Positions 18,680 through 27,835 of a DNA stretch of 64,000 nucleotides are shown piece by piece. The notes beneath the pieces are model-generated. The model was not told the origin of the DNA and did no database searches. It worked only from the letters and a program-made list of their open reading frames with translations. Numbering within the stretch: the stretch's first letter is position 1; each line of letters starts with the position of its first letter. The stretch covers positions 331,823 through 395,822 of the forward strand of contig KE159591.1 in NCBI GenBank assembly GCA_000403255.2, in the 5' to 3' direction. Position numbers and translations under genes: made by a program. The DNA comes from Lachnospiraceae bacterium 3-1 (GTDB lineage: Bacteria; Bacillota; Clostridia; Lachnospirales; Lachnospiraceae).

Positions 18680-20671
18680 CTATGTGTCATCTGCTGCTGA
18701 CAAATTCTTTTTTAATTCTATCATCTTATCACGCAGCTCTGCTGCTGCTTCGAAATTCAGTTCTGCCGCTGCTGACTGCATCTTTTTCTGAATTTCCCCA
18801 ATCAGTTTTTCCAATTCCTTCTTGCTCATAGATTCTGGATCTTTCTGGAATTGGTACTCTTCTTTTGCCACCTTCTTGGATATACTGATTAATTCTCGAA
18901 CAGACTTTCGAATCGTAGCCGGAGTGATGCCATGTTCCTTGTTATAAGCCTCCTGTATCCCTCTTCTTCGGTTTGTCTCATCTATGGCTACCCGCATGGA
19001 ATCGGTAATGCTGTCCGCATACATAATCACATGCCCTTCGGAATTCCGGGCTGCACGTCCTATGGTCTGAATCAAAGAAGTTTCAGAACGCAAAAATCCC
19101 TCTTTATCTGCATCCAAAATAGCTACCAATGTAATCTCCGGGATATCCAATCCTTCCCGTAAGAGGTTGATACCTACCAGTACGTCAAATACATCCAGCC
19201 GCAAATCTCTGATAATCTCTGCACGTTCTAAAGTATCAATATCAGAATGGAGATATTTCACACGAATTCCTACCTCTCGCATGTAATCGGTCAGGTCCTC
19301 CGCCATTCTCTTTGTTAATGTGGTAATCAATACTTTATTTTTTTTGGCAATCTCGCGATTGACTTCACCAATCAAATCATCAATCTGTCCTTCCACTGGC
19401 CGTACATCCACTTCGGGATCCAATAATCCGGTAGGACGGATAATCTGTTCTGTCCGTAACAGCTCATGTTCCTTCTCATAGACATTGGGCGTGGCTGACA
19501 CGAACAGCATCTGATCTATCTTACTTTCAAATTCTTCAAAATTCAAGGGCCTGTTATCTTTTGCCGAAGGCAGGCGGAAGCCATAATCCACCAATGTGGT
19601 CTTCCGGGACTGATCTCCTGCATACATCCCTCGCACCTGTGGAATTGTGATATGAGACTCATCCACAATAATCAAAAATTCCTCTGGGAAATAATCCATC
19701 AATGTGTTGGGAGGGACACCCTCCTGTGCTCCTGCCAAATGTCTGGAATAATTCTCAATGCCACTGCAAAAGCCCGTTTCCCTGAGCATTTCAATATCAA
19801 AATTCGTGCGTTCCGCAATTCTCTGGGCTTCTAACAATTTATCTTCTCCCTTAAAATAACGTACCCGCTCTTCCAGTTCTTTTTCAATATCAACGATTGC
19901 CCGATTGATCTGCTCCTGGGGCACCACATAGTGAGAGGCAGGGAAAATACTAATATGCTCCAGGCGGCTCTTCACCTCCCCTGTCACTACATCAATTTCC
20001 GTAATACGGTCAATCTCATCCCCAAAAAACTCTACCCGAATGGCGGTTTCTCCACTGTAAGCTGGGAAAATCTCCAACACATCTCCCCTCACCCTGAAAG
20101 TTCCTCGATGAAAATCCATATCATTACGGGTATATTGGGTATCAATTAATTTCCGAATAACCTCATCCCTGTCCTTACTCATACCCGGACGCAAAGACAC
20201 CATCATCTTCTCAAAATTTTCCGGCTCGCCCAGACCATAGATACAGGACACGCTGGATATGATAATTACATCCTTGCGTTCAATCAAAGATGCAGTTGCG
20301 GAAAGTCTGAGCTTGTCTATCTCCTCATTCACAGAAGAATCTTTGGCGATATAGGTGTCGGAGGATGGAACGTATGCTTCAGGCTGGTAATAGTCGTAGT
20401 AGGAGACAAAGTATTCCACTGCATTCTCAGGGAACATCTCCTTGAATTCTCCGTAAAGCTGCGCCGCAAGCGTTTTATTATGTGCTATAACGAGAGTGGG
20501 CTTCTGCAATTCCTGAATGACATTCGCCATCGTAAATGTCTTGCCGGAACCCGTAACCCCTAGTAAAGTCTGGAATTGATTGCCCTCCTTGAAGCCTTTG
20601 ACCAGCTCTGCGATGGCCTGGGGCTGGTCGCCTGTGGGCTTGTAGGGGGCTTGTAATTTAAACTCTGGCAT
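18680..20671 (-). CDS. uvrB: Excinuclease ABC subunit B
   Basis: A 663-residue UvrB. Walker A GVTGSGKT lies at residues 38-45, the damage-probing beta-hairpin [12 protein letters not shown] near 91-102, helicase motif QTIGRAARN towards the C-terminus, and a UvrC-binding UVR motif ([20 protein letters not shown] region) at the end. The start at 20671 follows TTGGAGG by eight bases. It is transcribed towards uvrA. The first 262 bp of this region (20401-20662) recur at 27203-27464, so this gene's 5' end has been duplicated or exchanged together with its upstream island. Confidence 0.98.
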
Positions 20672-20674
20672 ATG

Positions 20675-20818
20675 AAAACCTCCAATTTGTGACCGAAAAA
20701 AGTTTGCTTATTCGCCCGAAATTCGTGTAATTTGATTTTCGATTCGTGTAATTTTGGCTTGCAAAGCTGGCGAATAAGCGTTAAAATAGCAATTACACGA
20801 ATGCAGGTCACAAAACCG
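20675..20818 (-). promoter_or_regulatory. Structured 5' leader of uvrB with competing inverted repeats
   Basis: In the minus-strand leader, ATTCGTGTAATT occurs once, followed by two copies of its complement AATTACACGAAT, either of which can pair with it. GCTTATTCGCC is likewise answered by GGCGAATAAGC, and TGACC by GGTCA close to the ribosome-binding site. The pairings cannot all form together. The 23-nt piece TGACCTGCATTCGTGTAAT recurs with one change near 27063-27083. It may be a cis-acting RNA switch or simply a short multicopy repeat. Confidence 0.5.
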
Positions 20819-20890
20819 TATTTTTAAAACGTAACAACACTGAATAACACCAGCCAGTACAGATAGTATTATCCAGTCATTTGGTTTTTC

Positions 20891-20896
20891 ATTATA
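20891..20896 (-). promoter_or_regulatory. -10 element of the uvrBA promoter
   Basis: The minus strand has TATAAT within GTGTTATAATG, about 220 bp before the uvrB start. At 17-bp spacing the -35 position reads TGTACT, a weak match, which is compatible with a regulated promoter. The SOS-like box lies just upstream. Confidence 0.5.
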
Positions 20897-20909
20897 ACAC
20901 ATAAGTCAA

Positions 20910-20951
20910 AAAAAGTACAGACCAAAATCGAACTTTTGTTCTGTACTTTTT
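20910..20951. terminator. Bidirectional hairpin upstream of uvrB, conserved in both copies
   Basis: Arms AAAAAGTACAGA and TCTGTACTTTTT form a 12-bp stem around an 18-nt loop, with A/T tracts giving U-rich tails in both directions. The same arms occur at 27636-27676 next to the second uvrB 5' copy, but there the loop differs in sequence and length. It probably terminates the gene once lying upstream of uvrB. The SOS-like box lies partly in the loop. Confidence 0.65.
20930..20941 (-). promoter_or_regulatory. LexA (SOS) box of uvrBA
   Basis: The sequence GAACTTTTGTTC is an exact match to the Gram-positive SOS core GAAC-N4-GTTC. It lies 33 bp upstream of the -10 element, close to the -35 position, where LexA binding would block RNA polymerase. 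uvrB is a standard SOS gene in Firmicutes. In the second copy the same position reads AAACATTTGTTC, with one half-site damaged. Confidence 0.75.
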
Positions 20952-21024
20952 TATATCTTTTTATGTCATTCAGTTATGCCAGTATCTTAGTTTCATGCAA
21001 GAAATTCACTGATTTGTTCTATAT

Positions 21025-22495
21025 AACACCACTTTACAAGTTTTTTGTAAAAAAGAATAACGTACAGGATACTTTGTTGTATAATGAACTTGCTAAAACA
21101 CATTACAAAGGAAAGTGATCCCATACGTCAAATTTATTATACAATAAAAAGAACCTGATTGGTAGACTTTATCAATATTTTCATAATTATTTTGAAACCT
21201 GTCCTCTGCCTACAGCAGAATCTTTATTCCTGCTGGTTTTATCCATGCTGGCAATGGAATCTGCCCATTCCATCCGTTTTTTGTACAGGCATTTTTTATC
21301 TGGCATTGCAGAAAAATCGCTGAATGCATTCCATTATGCCTGTTCTTATGCCAAAGTGGATTATTCCAGATTCATGAATGTTACGGCCTCCATGGCGTTG
21401 AAACTGATTCCTAGGATGTTGGAATCACAGCCAGTTTTTTTGTGTATTGATGATACCATGGTTCCAAAGTTTGGCAAAAAGTTTGAAAATGCGTCAAAAC
21501 TATTTGACCATGCTGCACATAATGGCTCCAACTATTTGAATGGGCATTGCTTTGTAAGCCTGATGCTTTGTATCCCTGTCTGGAATGACCGCAAAGTGGT
21601 TTACCAGGCTGTGCCCTTAGGGTGCCGCATGTGGAAGAAAAAGAAGTCCAAACTGGAACTAGCCGCATCCATGGTCCGACAGGTTATGCCTGAATTTTGC
21701 ACAAAGAAAAATGTGGTTATCCTATGTGACAGCTGGTATGCCAAGAAAGACCTTGTCTGCGTTGTAAATGACTATTCCAACCTGGATATTATCTGTAATG
21801 CCAGATGTGATTCTGTTATTTATGACCTCGCACCAAAACCTACCGGAAAAAGGGGAAGGCCTGCAAAACATGGCCGTCGTCTTTCTGTCTGGGATGATTT
21901 TGTCCTTTCCGATGAAAAAATCGGAGAGTATTACACGGGCGTCCGCCGTGTCCTCACAAATATCTTCGGTGCAAGGGAAGTCTTGGCATACGTAACGTCA
22001 GCTGGAAAAGACAGCGGTTCCAGGCGCCTGTTCTTTAGCACTGTCTTCCCGGAGCAGCTGCATGTGTTCTGCGCATGGCAGGAAAAAGCACCGCTGAACC
22101 AGACCGGGAGCGGCTGGATGCAGTATATCCCACTATTTCTTTATGCATTCAGGTGGAATATTGAAGTGGGCTACTATGAACAGAAGACATTCTGGTCATT
22201 ATGCAGTTATATGGTACGCAGCTGTAAGGGGATTGAAATGCTGGTAAATATGATCAACATAGCATACTGTGCAATGAAACTATTGCCATACCAGGATGAG
22301 GCATTTGCAGAATACCGTACAAAAAGCGTACAGGAATTTCGTTTTGCCCTTAGTGGGCAGATTAGGAAGCAGGTATTTTATGCCACTTTCGTGGATAATA
22401 TCGAAAACAGCATAAAATCAAATGCCGTTATGAATGCCTTAAAACAACTAATCGTGCAACAGGGATTCCATTTATAAAACTTGTAAAGTGGTGTT
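21025..22495 (+). mobile_element. IS4-superfamily insertion sequence
   Basis: A 1,471-bp element bounded by 20-bp terminal inverted repeats AACACCACTTTACAAGTTTT (21025-21044 and, inverted, 22476-22495). It carries one transposase gene. A target-site duplication is not clear by eye. It is inserted in the sequence that originally lay upstream of uvrB, just beyond the hairpin at 20910-20951, and truncates a reading-frame remnant ending LHETKILA there. Confidence 0.9.
21084..22477 (+). pseudogene. IS4-superfamily transposase with a -1 frameshift at an A5 run
   Basis: The main frame (410 codons from an internal ATG at 21245) has DDE-type signatures: CIDDTMVPKFG, ILCDSWYAKKD and the IS4 YREK motif in YAFRWNIEVGYYEQK. 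Upstream, the same frame is open without a start codon (NLIGRLYQYFHNYFETCPL). An ATG at 21084 in the neighbouring frame encodes MNLLKHITKESDPIRQIYY and meets it at AATAAAAAGAAC (21146-21151). A -1 shift there joins both parts. This may be a lost A, making the gene defective, or translational slippage. The rest of the gene looks intact. Confidence 0.75.
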
Positions 22496-24405
22496 TAATA
22501 AAGAAAAACATAAACTATATTCATATAATGTTAATTTGTTCATTACTTGAATACAAATCAAAAAAATATTACATATCACCCTGTCTCCCAAAAACAAAAA
22601 CATGGCATATAGAAATCAAACCTGATTAAATAGTTTATCAAACAATATTTTATTCCTCTTCTGTGAATCTTGTATCAATTTATTATAAGGTATAATTTCT
22701 AAATATGCTTTATAAGAATCTATATATTTGTAATACCCCATATTATCGGGAGTTGGTTTCAAATCCTCTAATTTAGCAAGTTTTTTTATACTCAAATCGA
22801 CATCACATAAAATATAACAGAAAAAACGAATATTTTCTGTGCCACTTAAAAATTCGCCATCTTTGGTTTTTACTTTTCCTTCAACAATATCATCCATATA
22901 TTCCTTTACTTGCCTAACTGGATTTTCTGCATCAGTGTAATGCTCTCTGCCTGGTCGTTTAAATTCAATTATTGTTATATTTCTATATGGCTGATCCTGT
23001 TCATCAGTAAAAGCAAAAGGAGAATCAAAAATTACTATATCTGGTTCTTTTCCGCTATCATTATCAATTTCGCTCATACTTTTTAATTTCATGTCAGATG
23101 CCAAATAATGATGATACGCTAGCTTTTCATCTATAATCCATAAGTTATGTTGCAAATAATCTATATCATCCGATGTTTTTGTCATTGGAAATATCAGTTG
23201 ATGAATATTTTTTTCATAAGTATATTTTTGCTGCTCCTGATCTTTATACTTTATATTCTGAGCCAAAATATCTAAAATTGCTTTCCTATGCATTACATAC
23301 TCAGCCAAATTGCTCTTTCCCATATCAGATACTTTTTCTGCATAGGTATTGCGCTTTTGTATATAACTCTGATAATCTCTAACCCCCTCTTTTAACTCTT
23401 GCTCAAGTTCTTTTCCTTCTCGTTTTAATTCCAATTTGAATTTCTGTTCCTGTTTGAATAGTTCCATTTCAAGTTTTTCTTCATCTGTTATCCACGGTAT
23501 TTCATCTAATAATTCTGGTCTATTCTTTAACAATAGTCTATACTTAGGATTTTTGTTATAAACATAATCTTTAACTATTTCAGCTTTCTTTTTATTGCTT
23601 TCAGTAATATCCTTCTTTAAATAATCCAAAACCATAGATTCCATACATTCAACTATTTCATTACTTCCTATCGATTCCACTAAATTAGGCTGTTCTGGCA
23701 ATTCAATTTTTGTCCGTTCTCTATTTACATGATTATCCAACAATTCTGACATTACATATCCACTATAAGTAAATTCACCTTTATCATCTTCCAACTTTGT
23801 ATTCACATTGCCAAATATTTTCGACAAAGAAATAGGTTGAACCACCCAATGATTTGCACATAAATTCACCGTATGTTTTTCTTTAGTTTTCATGTAATTT
23901 TTAGAATGGACAATTTTAAATGGAATTCCTTTAATGTCCACATCCACAATCTTCGTATTATCTCCTATGTTTTCTCTATATAGTTCATCAACATCTACTG
24001 TGTCGAACTCATCATGCACAATTATTTTAGGTGCTTTCCCTAGTACATAATAGGTAAAACAATGATTTAATATATTTCTAGCAATTGTATCTATCTTTTT
24101 AGGACAATTCCCTTTATACTGTCCTCGTAATCCCATAAGCCGTATTTGTGTAACTCTTGGAACATCAGCATCCACTTCCGCCATACTCATGTCATGCACT
24201 GCATTATTTGTATCAAACAAAAATTTTCTGCGCTTTTTCTTATCCATTTCGTCAAAAACACTTTCTACACTAACTTCGCAAAATGCTTTTAACCACATCA
24301 TCCTTCCCACGCCTTTACAACCCTTTTGAATTTTAAACTCACTGGCGTATGTATCAAAAGAATTATAGTTATCATCATTAAATCCTATCCCATTATCAAT
24401 AATAA

Positions 24406-25709
24406 GGAATTGTGCAAAAATAAATTTACATTTTCATCCATTGACAATTACCTTCTGGGTTTGATTACATAGTTCCAGTTTCCCAAAATCTCACAGGGAA
24501 ACAATTGTATTTTTGTAAATTCTTCATCTGTGACCTTACGTTTCAGTTCGTATTTGTTTGTATCGACCTGACATTTTACTTTCAGGCCTTTGGCAGTAGT
24601 AGTTCCTGATATCAGATTCACGACAGTTTCTATATCAACCAGCGGCTGACCCTGCCAGTTTTTCGTTATATAGCAGAAAAGCCGGTGCTCTATCTTATTC
24701 CACTTTGATGTGCCAGGCGGAAAATGTGATACATGGATCTCAAGGCCGGTATAATCTGCAAGCTGCTGCAGCTCATATTTCCAAAGATGCAGACGGCTGC
24801 CATTGCTTCCCCCATTGTCACAGTTGATGTAGATCCTGTCTGCTTCCGGAAAAGTCCGGCTCCCTATACATGTCCACCAGCGGAGTATGCTTTCCGCAGC
24901 AAATTCTGCAGTATCATGGTCAGTGCCAAGGTTGACAAATCCTGTGTTGTCATTCAATACGTATACGCCGTAGGGGGCAACCTTGCCGAGTTCCGGGATT
25001 GGGAAGTCATGGTCCAGAACCTTACGTGGATCCTTTGTTTTTCTGTATTCCTCTCCGTTGTTCTTGAAATTGCCGATATTCTCCTTTTTCTTTGCATCGA
25101 CAGAAATCACTGGCAGCCCCTTTTCAAGAAAATCGGCAGCTTTGCTGTTTATGAATTCAAACTGCTCATTCCTGTCAGGATGGGGTTCGCCAACCTGGAG
25201 CATTTTCTGGTTTGCCTGTTTGCTGTACCCCAGTTTTTCCAGAATGCTGCTGACAGAGCGGAAGCTGATGTCTATATGAAATTTTTCGGCAAGGATATCC
25301 TGGATCTTCCGCAGGCTGAGGGTCGTATAAGACAGTACTTTTTGGGGGTCTCCATAGGTACTGCCGTCCACAATTTCCTGTATATGCCTTTCGATATCTG
25401 GGATGTTGTCCTGGAGTTTTTTCCGGCCAGCCCCCTGGAGCCGCATTTTTTCCTTCCGCTCAATCGGCTCGCCGCTGTCAATCTCTTTAAGCCCCTGCCT
25501 TATGGTGTAAGGGGCAACACCGCTTAGCCTGCTCACGGTGGAGATTCCGCCCCTTCCGTATGTTTTTGCTTCCGCAGCAAGAAATATGCGCCGCTGCCTC
25601 TCATCAAGTAATGGCAGCATAATACGAATTCGTTCTTCCATGGTCATACCTCCGTATGGCCATTATACCATATATTGCCAAAACAGTAAATTTATTTTTG
25701 CACAGTTCC
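24406..25709 (-). mobile_element. ISAzo13-type insertion sequence
   Basis: A 1,304-bp element with 24-bp terminal inverted repeats beginning GGAAYTGTGCAAAAATAAAT, differing at one position between the ends. It is flanked by TAA on both sides (24403-24405 and 25710-25712), a 3-bp target duplication. It contains one transposase gene reading on the minus strand and disrupts the GHKL/nuclease gene. The near-perfect ends and intact transposase suggest recent insertion. Confidence 0.92.
24448..25641 (-). CDS. ISAzo13-family transposase
   Basis: About 397 residues from the ATG at 25641; an ATG six bases earlier abuts the GGAGGT site and is less likely. The N-terminal half has helix-turn-helix regions (STVSRLSGVAPYTIRQGL). 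The catalytic domain resembles DDE_Tnp_ISAZ013: VISVDAKKKENIGNFKN, NCDNGGSNGSR and SKWNKIEHRLF supply the D, D and E. The C-terminal NWQGQPL and the region after it are also typical. It appears full length with no stops or shifts. Base composition (GC rich, CTG-rich) is unlike that of the gene it interrupts. Confidence 0.9.
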   Translation of the reverse strand: MEERIRIMLPLLDERQRRIFLAAEAKTYGRGGISTVSRLSGVAPYTIRQGLKEIDSGEPIERKEKMRLQGAGRKKLQDNIPDIERHIQEIVDGSTYGDPQKVLSYTTLSLRKIQDILAEKFHIDISFRSVSSILEKLGYSKQANQKMLQVGEPHPDRNEQFEFINSKAADFLEKGLPVISVDAKKKENIGNFKNNGEEYRKTKDPRKVLDHDFPIPELGKVAPYGVYVLNDNTGFVNLGTDHDTAEFAAESILRWWTCIGSRTFPEADRIYINCDNGGSNGSRLHLWKYELQQLADYTGLEIHVSHFPPGTSKWNKIEHRLFCYITKNWQGQPLVDIETVVNLISGTTTAKGLKVKCQVDTNKYELKRKVTDEEFTKIQLFPCEILGNWNYVIKPRR

Positions 25710-25980
25710 TAACAATGTTCTCCACATCCGTTTCCCATTGTTCAAAAAGATTCATTTGCTTCTCACGTTCAATTATAATTTCTATTTTCCCATTTGTAAT
25801 ATGTGCATCCTCTATACTTTGAATAGAATTTATAACAGCCTCATATAAAGGTAGTAAAGGTGTAGTTTTTGGTAATGTATGTAAACTTACTAAACCTTTA
25901 AAATTCATTTTCATGAGCTATCCTTCCTATCTCAATATGATTAAAAAATCAAATATTTATCAAGTTATTAACCAGAATCT

Positions 25981-26985
25981 TTAGCAATCCCCTTTAAGAT
26001 ATTTTTCTATTTCCCGATCAAACTCCGAAATATACTCTTTATCCTGTTTTACTCGAAATATCTCATATTCCTTCTCTGCTTTTTTCATAGCGGTTTCATG
26101 TGATATTTTCCCTTTTCCATCCAACACTTCCCGCCGATTATTTATTAAAAACTGATTTGTCTGCTCCACCCAATCTTGCATACTCATTAAAATCTCATCT
26201 TCTGCCATCAGTTCAGCATAATCAATAAACATAGTTACCAGTCTATTTAAACGGGACAATTCCTTTTCATTTAAATAATTTTTGGCAATACCTATATCCC
26301 GCTTTAGCACTTTTCCATCTGGTGCATCTTTCCATGTTGTCAACCCCATAGCTGGCTTTTCTGAGTCTGCACGCTCATATATTAATTCAGCCGCTGTCTT
26401 TCCAGTAACTGCAAAATGAAGTTTATTCTGAACAAAGGCATAAAAATTCTTTGTAATTTCGCTGTTTTTATCATAATCATAGCTACATTGTTCAAATATA
26501 TCCGTGATTTTCTGATAGGCTCTACGCTCACTTGCCCTAATTTCCCGGATGCGTTCTAATAATTCATCAAAATAATCTTTTCCAAAGGGTTTGCCATTTT
26601 TTAACATATCATCATTTAACACAAACCCCTTAATAATATACTCTTTTAATGTTTTCGTTGCCCACTGTCGAAACCTGGTGGCCTTTTTTGAATTTACACG
26701 ATATCCTACAGCAATAATCGCATCTAAATTAAAGCATTTTACTTTTCGGCTAACATTTCTTCCGCCTTCATTTTGAACTACCGAGAAAAACTCGGCAGTT
26801 GCCTCTGCGTCCAACTCTTCTTCTTTATAAATATTTTTCAAATGCAATGAAATATTATCTGCTGTGCAATCAAATAATTCTGCCATTGCTCTTTGCGTCA
26901 TCCAAAATGTCTCTTCTTTAAAAATGACATTCACATAAACATTTGTATCCTCTAACTGATATAATATAATCTCATGCTCCTGCAT
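25981..26985 (-). CDS. rhuM: RhuM-family protein
   Basis: About 334 residues from the ATG at 26985, which follows AGGTGGG; a longer reading to 27045 is unsupported. N-terminal features (EETFWMTQRAMAELFDCTADNISLHLKNI and EFFSVVQNEGGRNVSRKVKCFNLDAIIAVGYRVNS) are diagnostic of the virulence RhuM family, including a DNA-binding-like helix-turn-helix. The C-terminal part contains the conserved region NFYAFVQNKLHFAVTGKTAAELI. RhuM proteins are common on pathogenicity islands and near restriction or defence genes, but their activity is not established. It lies 66 bp before the GHKL/nuclease gene, same strand, and is probably cotranscribed. Confidence 0.9.
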   Translation of the reverse strand: MQEHEIILYQLEDTNVYVNVIFKEETFWMTQRAMAELFDCTADNISLHLKNIYKEEELDAEATAEFFSVVQNEGGRNVSRKVKCFNLDAIIAVGYRVNSKKATRFRQWATKTLKEYIIKGFVLNDDMLKNGKPFGKDYFDELLERIREIRASERRAYQKITDIFEQCSYDYDKNSEITKNFYAFVQNKLHFAVTGKTAAELIYERADSEKPAMGLTTWKDAPDGKVLKRDIGIAKNYLNEKELSRLNRLVTMFIDYAELMAEDEILMSMQDWVEQTNQFLINNRREVLDGKGKISHETAMKKAEKEYEIFRVKQDKEYISEFDREIEKYLKGDC

Positions 26986-27202
26986 AGATACCCACCTCTT
27001 CAAATTATAACATATTCTTCCATAAAAATAATCGCTCTTATACATATAGTGTTATATAGTCCATTACACGAATCCAGGTCACAAACTCCACCCATCCGCC
27101 TAGTGTTATTTCGTCCATAATTCCCCCATTTCATCCACAAAATACGGTACAATCAACACCAAACAGCACGAAATAATGCGGTTTTCACCCTGTCCCAAAA
27201 TT
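26986..27202. other. Spacer with short direct repeats between rhuM and the uvrB fragment
   Basis: Contains two copies of a TAGTGTTAT..GTCCAT motif (near 27047-27066 and 27101-27118), the 23-nt piece shared with the uvrB leader (27063-27083) and, at 27186-27200, CACCCTGTCCCAAAA. A near copy, CACCCTGTCTCCCAAAA, lies at 22577-22593 on the other side of the GHKL/rhuM pair. No gene is seen. Confidence 0.5.
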
Positions 27203-27548
27203 AGGAGACAAAATACTCCACTGCGTTCTCAGGGAACATCTCCTTGAATTCTCCGTATAACTGCGCCGCAAGCGTCTTGTTGTGGGCGATGACCAGCGTC
27301 GGCTTCTGCAATTCCTGAATGACATTCGCCATCGTAAATGTCTTGCCGGAACCCGTAACCCCTAGTAAAGTCTGGAATTGATTGCCCTCCTTGAAGCCTT
27401 TGACCAGCTCGGCGATGGCCTGGGGCTGGTCGCCTGTGGGCTTGTAGGGGGCTTGTAATTTAAAAACATGCCCGTCTTTGGGGCTGCTTTTATGAGCAAG
27501 TAGCTGACTGTTGTCAGCGGATTGGGAATTTCCTCTCTTATCTGGCAT
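27203..27548 (-). pseudogene. Duplicated 5' fragment of uvrB
   Basis: Positions 27203-27464 match 20401-20662 of the full uvrB and encode the same residues up to VEYFVS, ending in a stop exactly where uvrB continues with [10 protein letters not shown]. The Walker A GVTGSGKT is present but all later domains are missing, so it cannot work. Its N-terminus carries about 25 extra in-frame codons ([20 protein letters not shown]...) between MP and FKLQ. In the half nearest the truncation the copies differ by roughly 15 mainly synonymous changes; in the other 162 bp by one. Confidence 0.92.
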
Positions 27549-27635
27549 ATAAAAAATAGCACAAGGCATCACGGTATGTAATAAAAGTCACAAATTCTTA
27601 AAATTTGTGTTTTTATAGTATATCACTATATATAA

Positions 27636-27676
27636 AAAAAGTACAGACAAAACTAAACATTTGTTCTGTACTTTTT
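27636..27676. terminator. Second copy of the uvrB-upstream hairpin
   Basis: Arms AAAAAGTACAGA and TCTGTACTTTTT are identical to those at 20910-20951, while the 17-nt loop (CAAAACTAAACATTTGT) has diverged. It includes the damaged SOS half-site AAAC. U-rich tails exist in both directions. Confidence 0.6.
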
Positions 27677-27688
27677 ATCTTTCTTTTA

Positions 27689-27835
27689 TTATGCCAGAAT
27701 TTCTTCCAGACAATCCATATAATTATCTTCTGAAAAGTCTGCGCTTTAGTATCACATCATTTATAAATAGCTCAAGCTCACTTAAGCAATCCTCTATAAT
27801 TTCAGATGTATCGCCATATACATCTATGGTTTCTT
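27689..27835 (-). pseudogene. Remnant of a small gene formerly upstream of uvrB
   Basis: The minus strand reads DVYGDTSEIIEDCLSELELF and on to VILKRR, then after a shift SEDNYMDCLEEILA and stop, directly before the hairpin. The other uvrB copy has a cognate end LHETKILA-stop in the same place. No family is recognised and no start or intact frame is present. Confidence 0.35.

Follow-up and report, generated by a model that had tools for sequence, protein, structure and literature searches.

An insertion-sequence-interrupted GHKL-Shedu gene carried by a decayed integrative element at uvrB in Lachnospiraceae bacterium 3-1

We analyzed a 64,000-nt stretch of the 5.08-Mb genome of Lachnospiraceae bacterium 3-1 (C21:331823-395822, in an assembly of 27 contigs; hereafter, the window), in which an insertion sequence (IS) splits a gene for a protein with an N-terminal GHKL ATPase and a C-terminal PD-(D/E)XK nuclease. 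With a probability of roughly 0.87, this gene is a broken GHKL-Shedu gene (paraMORC3, or Shedu type I-D) for a single-protein anti-phage nuclease, carried as cargo by a decayed integrative element at uvrB, with an N-terminal module that most likely gates the nuclease in the intact relatives. The evidence comprises the predicted folds, the invariant catalytic residues, the relation of the nuclease domain to Shedu, the defence-rich neighbourhoods of homologues in a small sample, and the position of the IS between two motifs of the ATP site. The gene is broken but otherwise typical of GHKL-Shedu, and thus represents a known kind in a new place; the element that targets uvrB is the less expected part.

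The interrupted gene and its intact relative

The gene is read from the minus strand in two parts, with the following features in the window:

22616..24402, minus strand: C-terminal piece of the split gene, coding for residues ~69-663 and including DNGIGF and KGVGR, an S5-like transducer, a helical stalk and a PD-(D/E)XK nuclease (E465, D523, E548, K550, Q566)
24403..24405 and 25710-25712, no strand: left and right copies of the target duplication TAA that flanks the IS
24406..25709, minus strand: ISAzo13-family IS of 1,304 bp with terminal inverted repeats, transposase at 24448-25647
25713..25914, minus strand: N-terminal piece of the same split gene, coding for residues 1 to ~68 and including the N-box (E25/N29)

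An earlier note on this DNA had predicted that excision of 24406-25709 plus one TAA would repair a 663-codon gene. These boundaries proved exact, and the flanking 3-bp TAA duplication was observed, confirming a precise interruption of the gene by the IS. The arithmetic also agrees, as 3,299 less 1,307 leaves 1,992 nt, or 663 codons and a stop, and an intact natural relative, found at L053:1497-3488, encodes 663 aa and shares 96% identity with the C-terminal part in the window. The reading frame was checked on both pieces separately and on intact L053, rather than on a rebuilt window gene. The N-terminal piece aligns with residues 1-70 of L053, and the C-terminal piece starts one or two codons ahead of D71NGIGF and extends to the end of the gene; its longest open reading frame (ORF) from ATG, GTG or TTG covers 22616-24310 (564 aa). 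The IS sits between the GHKL motifs E25/N29 and D71NGIGF, and the gene in the window is presumably a null allele.

The transposase within the split gene belongs to the ISAzo13 family (NCBIfam NF033519, 4.8e-166), and the features expected of this family were all found, namely a DDE transposase, terminal inverted repeats (30 nt, 90% complementary) and a short target duplication. The genome harbors six full-length copies of this IS, including the one described here, with a 3-bp TAA/TTA duplication in 6/6.

The insertion had also been described in the note as expected if the gene was costly. Selection of the insertion owing to such a cost would be in line with the state of other near copies, which are broken as well: the L057 copy is out of frame and missing codons 22-201, a deletion in G322 and G323 (L044, L049), probably a single event, runs from codon ~37 into the integrase gene, and the L055 copy has a frameshift near codon 141, with the match stopping at residue 545. 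Among the near copies listed (window, L057, G322, G323, L055, L053), only L053 is intact. However, the deletion in G322/G323 also takes most of the remaining element, so the GHKL-Shedu gene was not singled out. Because five further full copies of the IS lie at 3-bp targets of this type, and because several of the other broken near copies are found in elements that lost much else, neutral loss is as good an account. Selection for the loss of this gene is therefore rather unlikely, and the breakage of the near copies fits a general decay of the elements, in which a cost of the gene is possible.

Domain structure, relatives and proposed function

The N-terminal GHKL domain has intact ATP-site motifs and is followed by an S5 transducer, with VIA alignments to MORC and Hsp90 extending to residue ~330-344; the C-terminal part is a restriction-endonuclease-fold domain with E-D-ExK motifs. 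The catalytic residues D523, E548 and K550 named in the note are correct and are invariant in 68/68 homologues, and its layout of a GHKL ATPase with a PD-(D/E)XK nuclease is supported. Structure models were made of single chains only. Since whole-model Foldseek and VIA searches were swamped by Hsp90-type rows, the C-terminal part was folded alone; with this model, Shedu and SduA were among the top VIA rows. The comparison of the nuclease domain with Shedu by hhalign gave an E-value of 1.3e-7 and a probability of 94. A phmmer search against solved structures gave no match, and a profile search of solved structures returned only Mlh1, weakly (E 0.007). PF14082 had no match in the window's own genome.

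The nuclease-domain fold and the E / D / E-x-K / Q pattern are shared with canonical Shedu SduA (B. cereus 8ti8/8ti9, E. coli 8ps4), from which the window family differs by having a GHKL+S5 module as its sensor half. To our knowledge, this module is absent from these canonical proteins. The layout had been called undescribed in the note, but it is already known under two names. In the study of Iyer, Abhiman and Aravind (2008), paraMORC3 is defined by GHKL, S5 and a C-terminal domain with E-D-ExK motifs, and is prevalent in Proteobacteria and Bacteroidetes (PMC2292703). The window family shares this architecture, with its restriction-endonuclease fold, and a sporadic, mobile distribution; it differs in that its near relatives are found here in Lachnospiraceae. 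The second name is GHKL-Shedu: according to its published report, VcSduA of Vibrio cholerae combines GHKL with DUF4263, is assigned to Shedu type I-D, restricts phage as an independent system, and loses activity with either E27A or K557A (PMC12137116). VcSduA and the window family have in common the N-terminal GHKL ATPase, a middle domain and the C-terminal PD-(D/E)xK Shedu nuclease, and the key residues E27/K557 are at positions similar to E25/K550 in L053. The window copy differs from VcSduA in being split by an IS and in its location within an integrative element of a Firmicute.

To assess distribution, a species-level set of bacterial and archaeal genomes was scanned with a conserved peptide pattern and the best 80 stretches were retained; 431 of the 439 pattern-matched stretches encode relatives, which is more than chance. 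Close relatives of the GHKL-Shedu gene were found in Lachnospiraceae records, and the gene is present in 5/299 sampled genomes of the window's taxonomic family, its own genome included. At an E-value of 1e-5, matches were found in 56 of 72,556 plasmid records (47 covering at least 80% of the query) and in 1 of 50,697 records of a phage collection, whereas a scan of viral contigs gave no relative. The homologue in the phage record (L022:2485-4509, ON245412.1) adjoins an integrase and is annotated as an N-acetylmuramoyl-L-alanine amidase, which looks like a mis-annotation.

Eight of the 56 plasmid records, hand-picked for diversity, were examined for neighbouring genes, seven of them annotated and the eighth without annotation. 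In this small sample, 7/7 annotated plasmids have restriction, CBASS-type (SAVED, ThiF, Mov34), Shedu, SIR2, AbiE or Abi genes within 8 kb of the homologue, as compared to a defence gene in 1/6 control stretches from six of the same seven plasmids (a cas gene at the edge; Fisher p = 0.015). The defence-type neighbourhoods anticipated for the homologues were thus found.

The restriction genes among these neighbours bear on an alternative, in which the protein would be an accessory of a restriction-modification system, such as a DNA looping or translocation partner, and not a stand-alone defence. Type I restriction genes are located upstream of two Vibrionaceae homologues and near one Rhodococcus homologue, and the 2008 study, which made this proposal for MORC/paraMORC, ties the wider group to restriction-modification (PMC2292703). 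However, the gene adjoins RhuM and an OLD-type gene in L053 and L057, a methylase was found in 0/6 scanned L053 proteins, the protein has a nuclease domain of its own, and VcSduA is reported to work as an independent system (PMC12137116). An accessory role is therefore improbable.

Several observations weigh against the assignment to GHKL-Shedu. BspD6I equals Shedu in VIA Z, and Foldseek on the C-terminal part alone gave nothing below E 0.001, the best match being McrC at 6.9e-3. Pfam SduA_C had no hmmscan match in L053, in four homologues or in the window piece, and single-sequence scans of pieces and whole homologues with PADLOC and NCBIfam gave no usable match; one PADLOC SduA row (E 0.027), in one homologue, covers residues 397-444, N-terminal of the nuclease domain. 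The family identity is based on architecture, motif position and the Shedu comparison. The exact combination of E27 and K557 was seen in no row examined; among seven extra homologues, four have E27 with K556 or K558, one has E35/K542, and the motif search gave no clear residues for two. The neighbourhoods come from a small sample in which genes were classed by product name, and counting a patatin-like phospholipase as defence raises the control to 2/6.

Under the GHKL-Shedu assignment, the GHKL+S5 module of an intact relative (residues ~1-310) would most likely bind ATP, dimerise and clamp on DNA; the helical stalk (~315-452) would relay the clamped state to the C-terminal PD-(D/E)XK domain (E465, D523, E548, K550), which would then cut invading DNA. 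We infer ATP gating, a DNA target and an anti-phage function for this family.

The integrative element inserted in uvrB

The window gene belongs to the cargo of a decayed integrative element whose insertion point is uvrB codon ~93. The element and its surroundings include the following features:

18680..20671, minus strand: full-length uvrB, whose 5' part (20400-20671) was probably supplied by the element together with the promoter region
20909..20952, no strand: palindrome upstream of uvrB
21245..22477, plus strand: IS701-family transposase, inside the island
25981..27045, minus strand: RhuM-family gene (Pfam Virulence_RhuM 1.5e-110; PADLOC candidate PDC-S05 7.4e-147), the first gene inside the left end
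27187..27215, minus strand: left junction (attL-like), where uvrB reading ...TATTTTGTCTCCTA ends at 27202 and the left end of the element starts
27202..27464, minus strand: displaced uvrB 5' fragment (263 bases), 94% identical to 20400-20662
27695..27830, minus strand: tyrosine-integrase gene remnant, left by an older element and situated upstream of the displaced uvrB fragment

In several genomes, displaced uvrB fragments share the same last base, after TATTTTGT(G/C)TCCTA, and are followed by a shared left end. This joint pattern was found in 3/29 genomes of the genus and 5/299 of the family (the window's own genome in both), with none in the same sets when it was read backwards, and a uvrB fragment adjoins it at 7/7 distinct places. 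The order in L053 is uvrB fragment, RhuM, GHKL-Shedu, OLD-type gene, pieces of conjugation genes, tyrosine integrase and uvrB; in the window, the L053 integrase as query had no match on the IS701/uvrB side of the island. At L041, L043 and the second L057 fragment, other sequence begins at or just past the junction point, and more than one element type may therefore be present at uvrB.

The uvrB/uvrA neighbourhood raises the alternative of a MutL-like DNA-repair enzyme, with which the GHKL+S5 architecture, the weak Mlh1 match and the adjacent uvrB would agree. However, uvrB lies next to the GHKL-Shedu gene because the element inserts in uvrB, other homologues are located among defence genes on plasmids, and the nuclease domain is Shedu-like. 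A repair role based on the adjacency was dropped after the insertion junction was found, and a MutL-like enzyme is highly improbable.

To compare the two parts of uvrB, 13 full copies from loci already in hand were each aligned with the window uvrB. In nine copies, identity is 85.9-95.8% over the 263 bases preceding the junction and only 70.5-81.9% over the next 1,500. The two parts are alike in the other four (G301, G309, G312, G320; 75.3-81.7% and 78.8-81.0%), and hence better conservation alone does not explain the 5' part of uvrB. This part seems to be mobile, and six of the nine mosaic copies have an integrase gene or remnant upstream of uvrB. These comparisons suggest that the elements bring along a uvrB promoter of their own together with the first ~93 codons of the gene, which leaves uvrB a mosaic. 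SXT in prfC is an earlier case of an element rebuilding the 5' end of its target gene; given this case, the principle would not be new, but the target uvrB and the length replaced would be. No report of uvrB as an element insertion site was found in the open-access literature searched.

Such elements were seen at window 18680-27830, L053, L037-L038, L149 and L152, and their cargo varies. RhuM, GHKL-Shedu and OLD are found together in L053, without OLD in the window, and with a broken GHKL gene and a partial OLD in L057. The G303 cargo consists of two unassigned ORFs followed by a DNA methylase and a GHKL protein of 817 aa (together at L038:12760-16487); the GHKL protein (HATPase_c_3 6.2e-21) matches restriction enzymes only weakly, within its GHKL part. 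G152 carries PDC-M62A/B (with weaker PtuA/PtuB matches) and a YhcG-type nuclease, G283 an RnlA-like toxin with an RNase H part (matched by Pfam only, unmatched in PADLOC), and G157 and G304 only a RhuM gene that is frameshifted or partial. The displaced fragment of G303 lies ~65 kb from the full uvrB on the same contig, and the 10 ORFs scanned in this interval include a TraG-type coupling protein and a P-loop_TraG/AAA_10 protein.

These data make it likely that a family of tyrosine-recombinase elements, at least one of them reaching ~65 kb and bearing conjugation genes, has a single insertion point in uvrB (codon ~93) and brings its own promoter, with an SOS-like box, and ~93 codons, thereby rebuilding uvrB as a mosaic that is controlled by the element's promoter, with the left-end region holding interchangeable defence cargo.

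Other observations were made at these loci. RhuM, whole or in part, is retained near the left end or uvrB, also where almost no other cargo is left (window 25981-27045, L053:453-1457, L044, L049, L151, L155). Next to the left end of another element, L152:16999-18504 encodes a protein of 501 aa that combines an RNase H part with RnlA-toxin domains. The palindrome at 20909-20952 contains GAAC-N4-GTTC, which we take to resemble an SOS box; a diverged palindrome occurs at 27608-27689, upstream of the displaced fragment, and others at uvrB or elsewhere in related genomes. The integrase remnant at 27695-27830 suggests at least two successive insertions at the uvrB site.

The present analysis places GHKL-Shedu in gut-type Firmicutes, which a published survey may already include. 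Models of Pfam, PADLOC 2.0.0 (2023) and NCBIfam do not call the family, and surveys using those would therefore miss it. If the proposed insertion and rebuilding of uvrB are correct, mobile elements that deliver anti-phage cargo also replace the promoter and N-terminus of a core DNA-repair gene by their own, and DNA-damage repair would be tied to element carriage.
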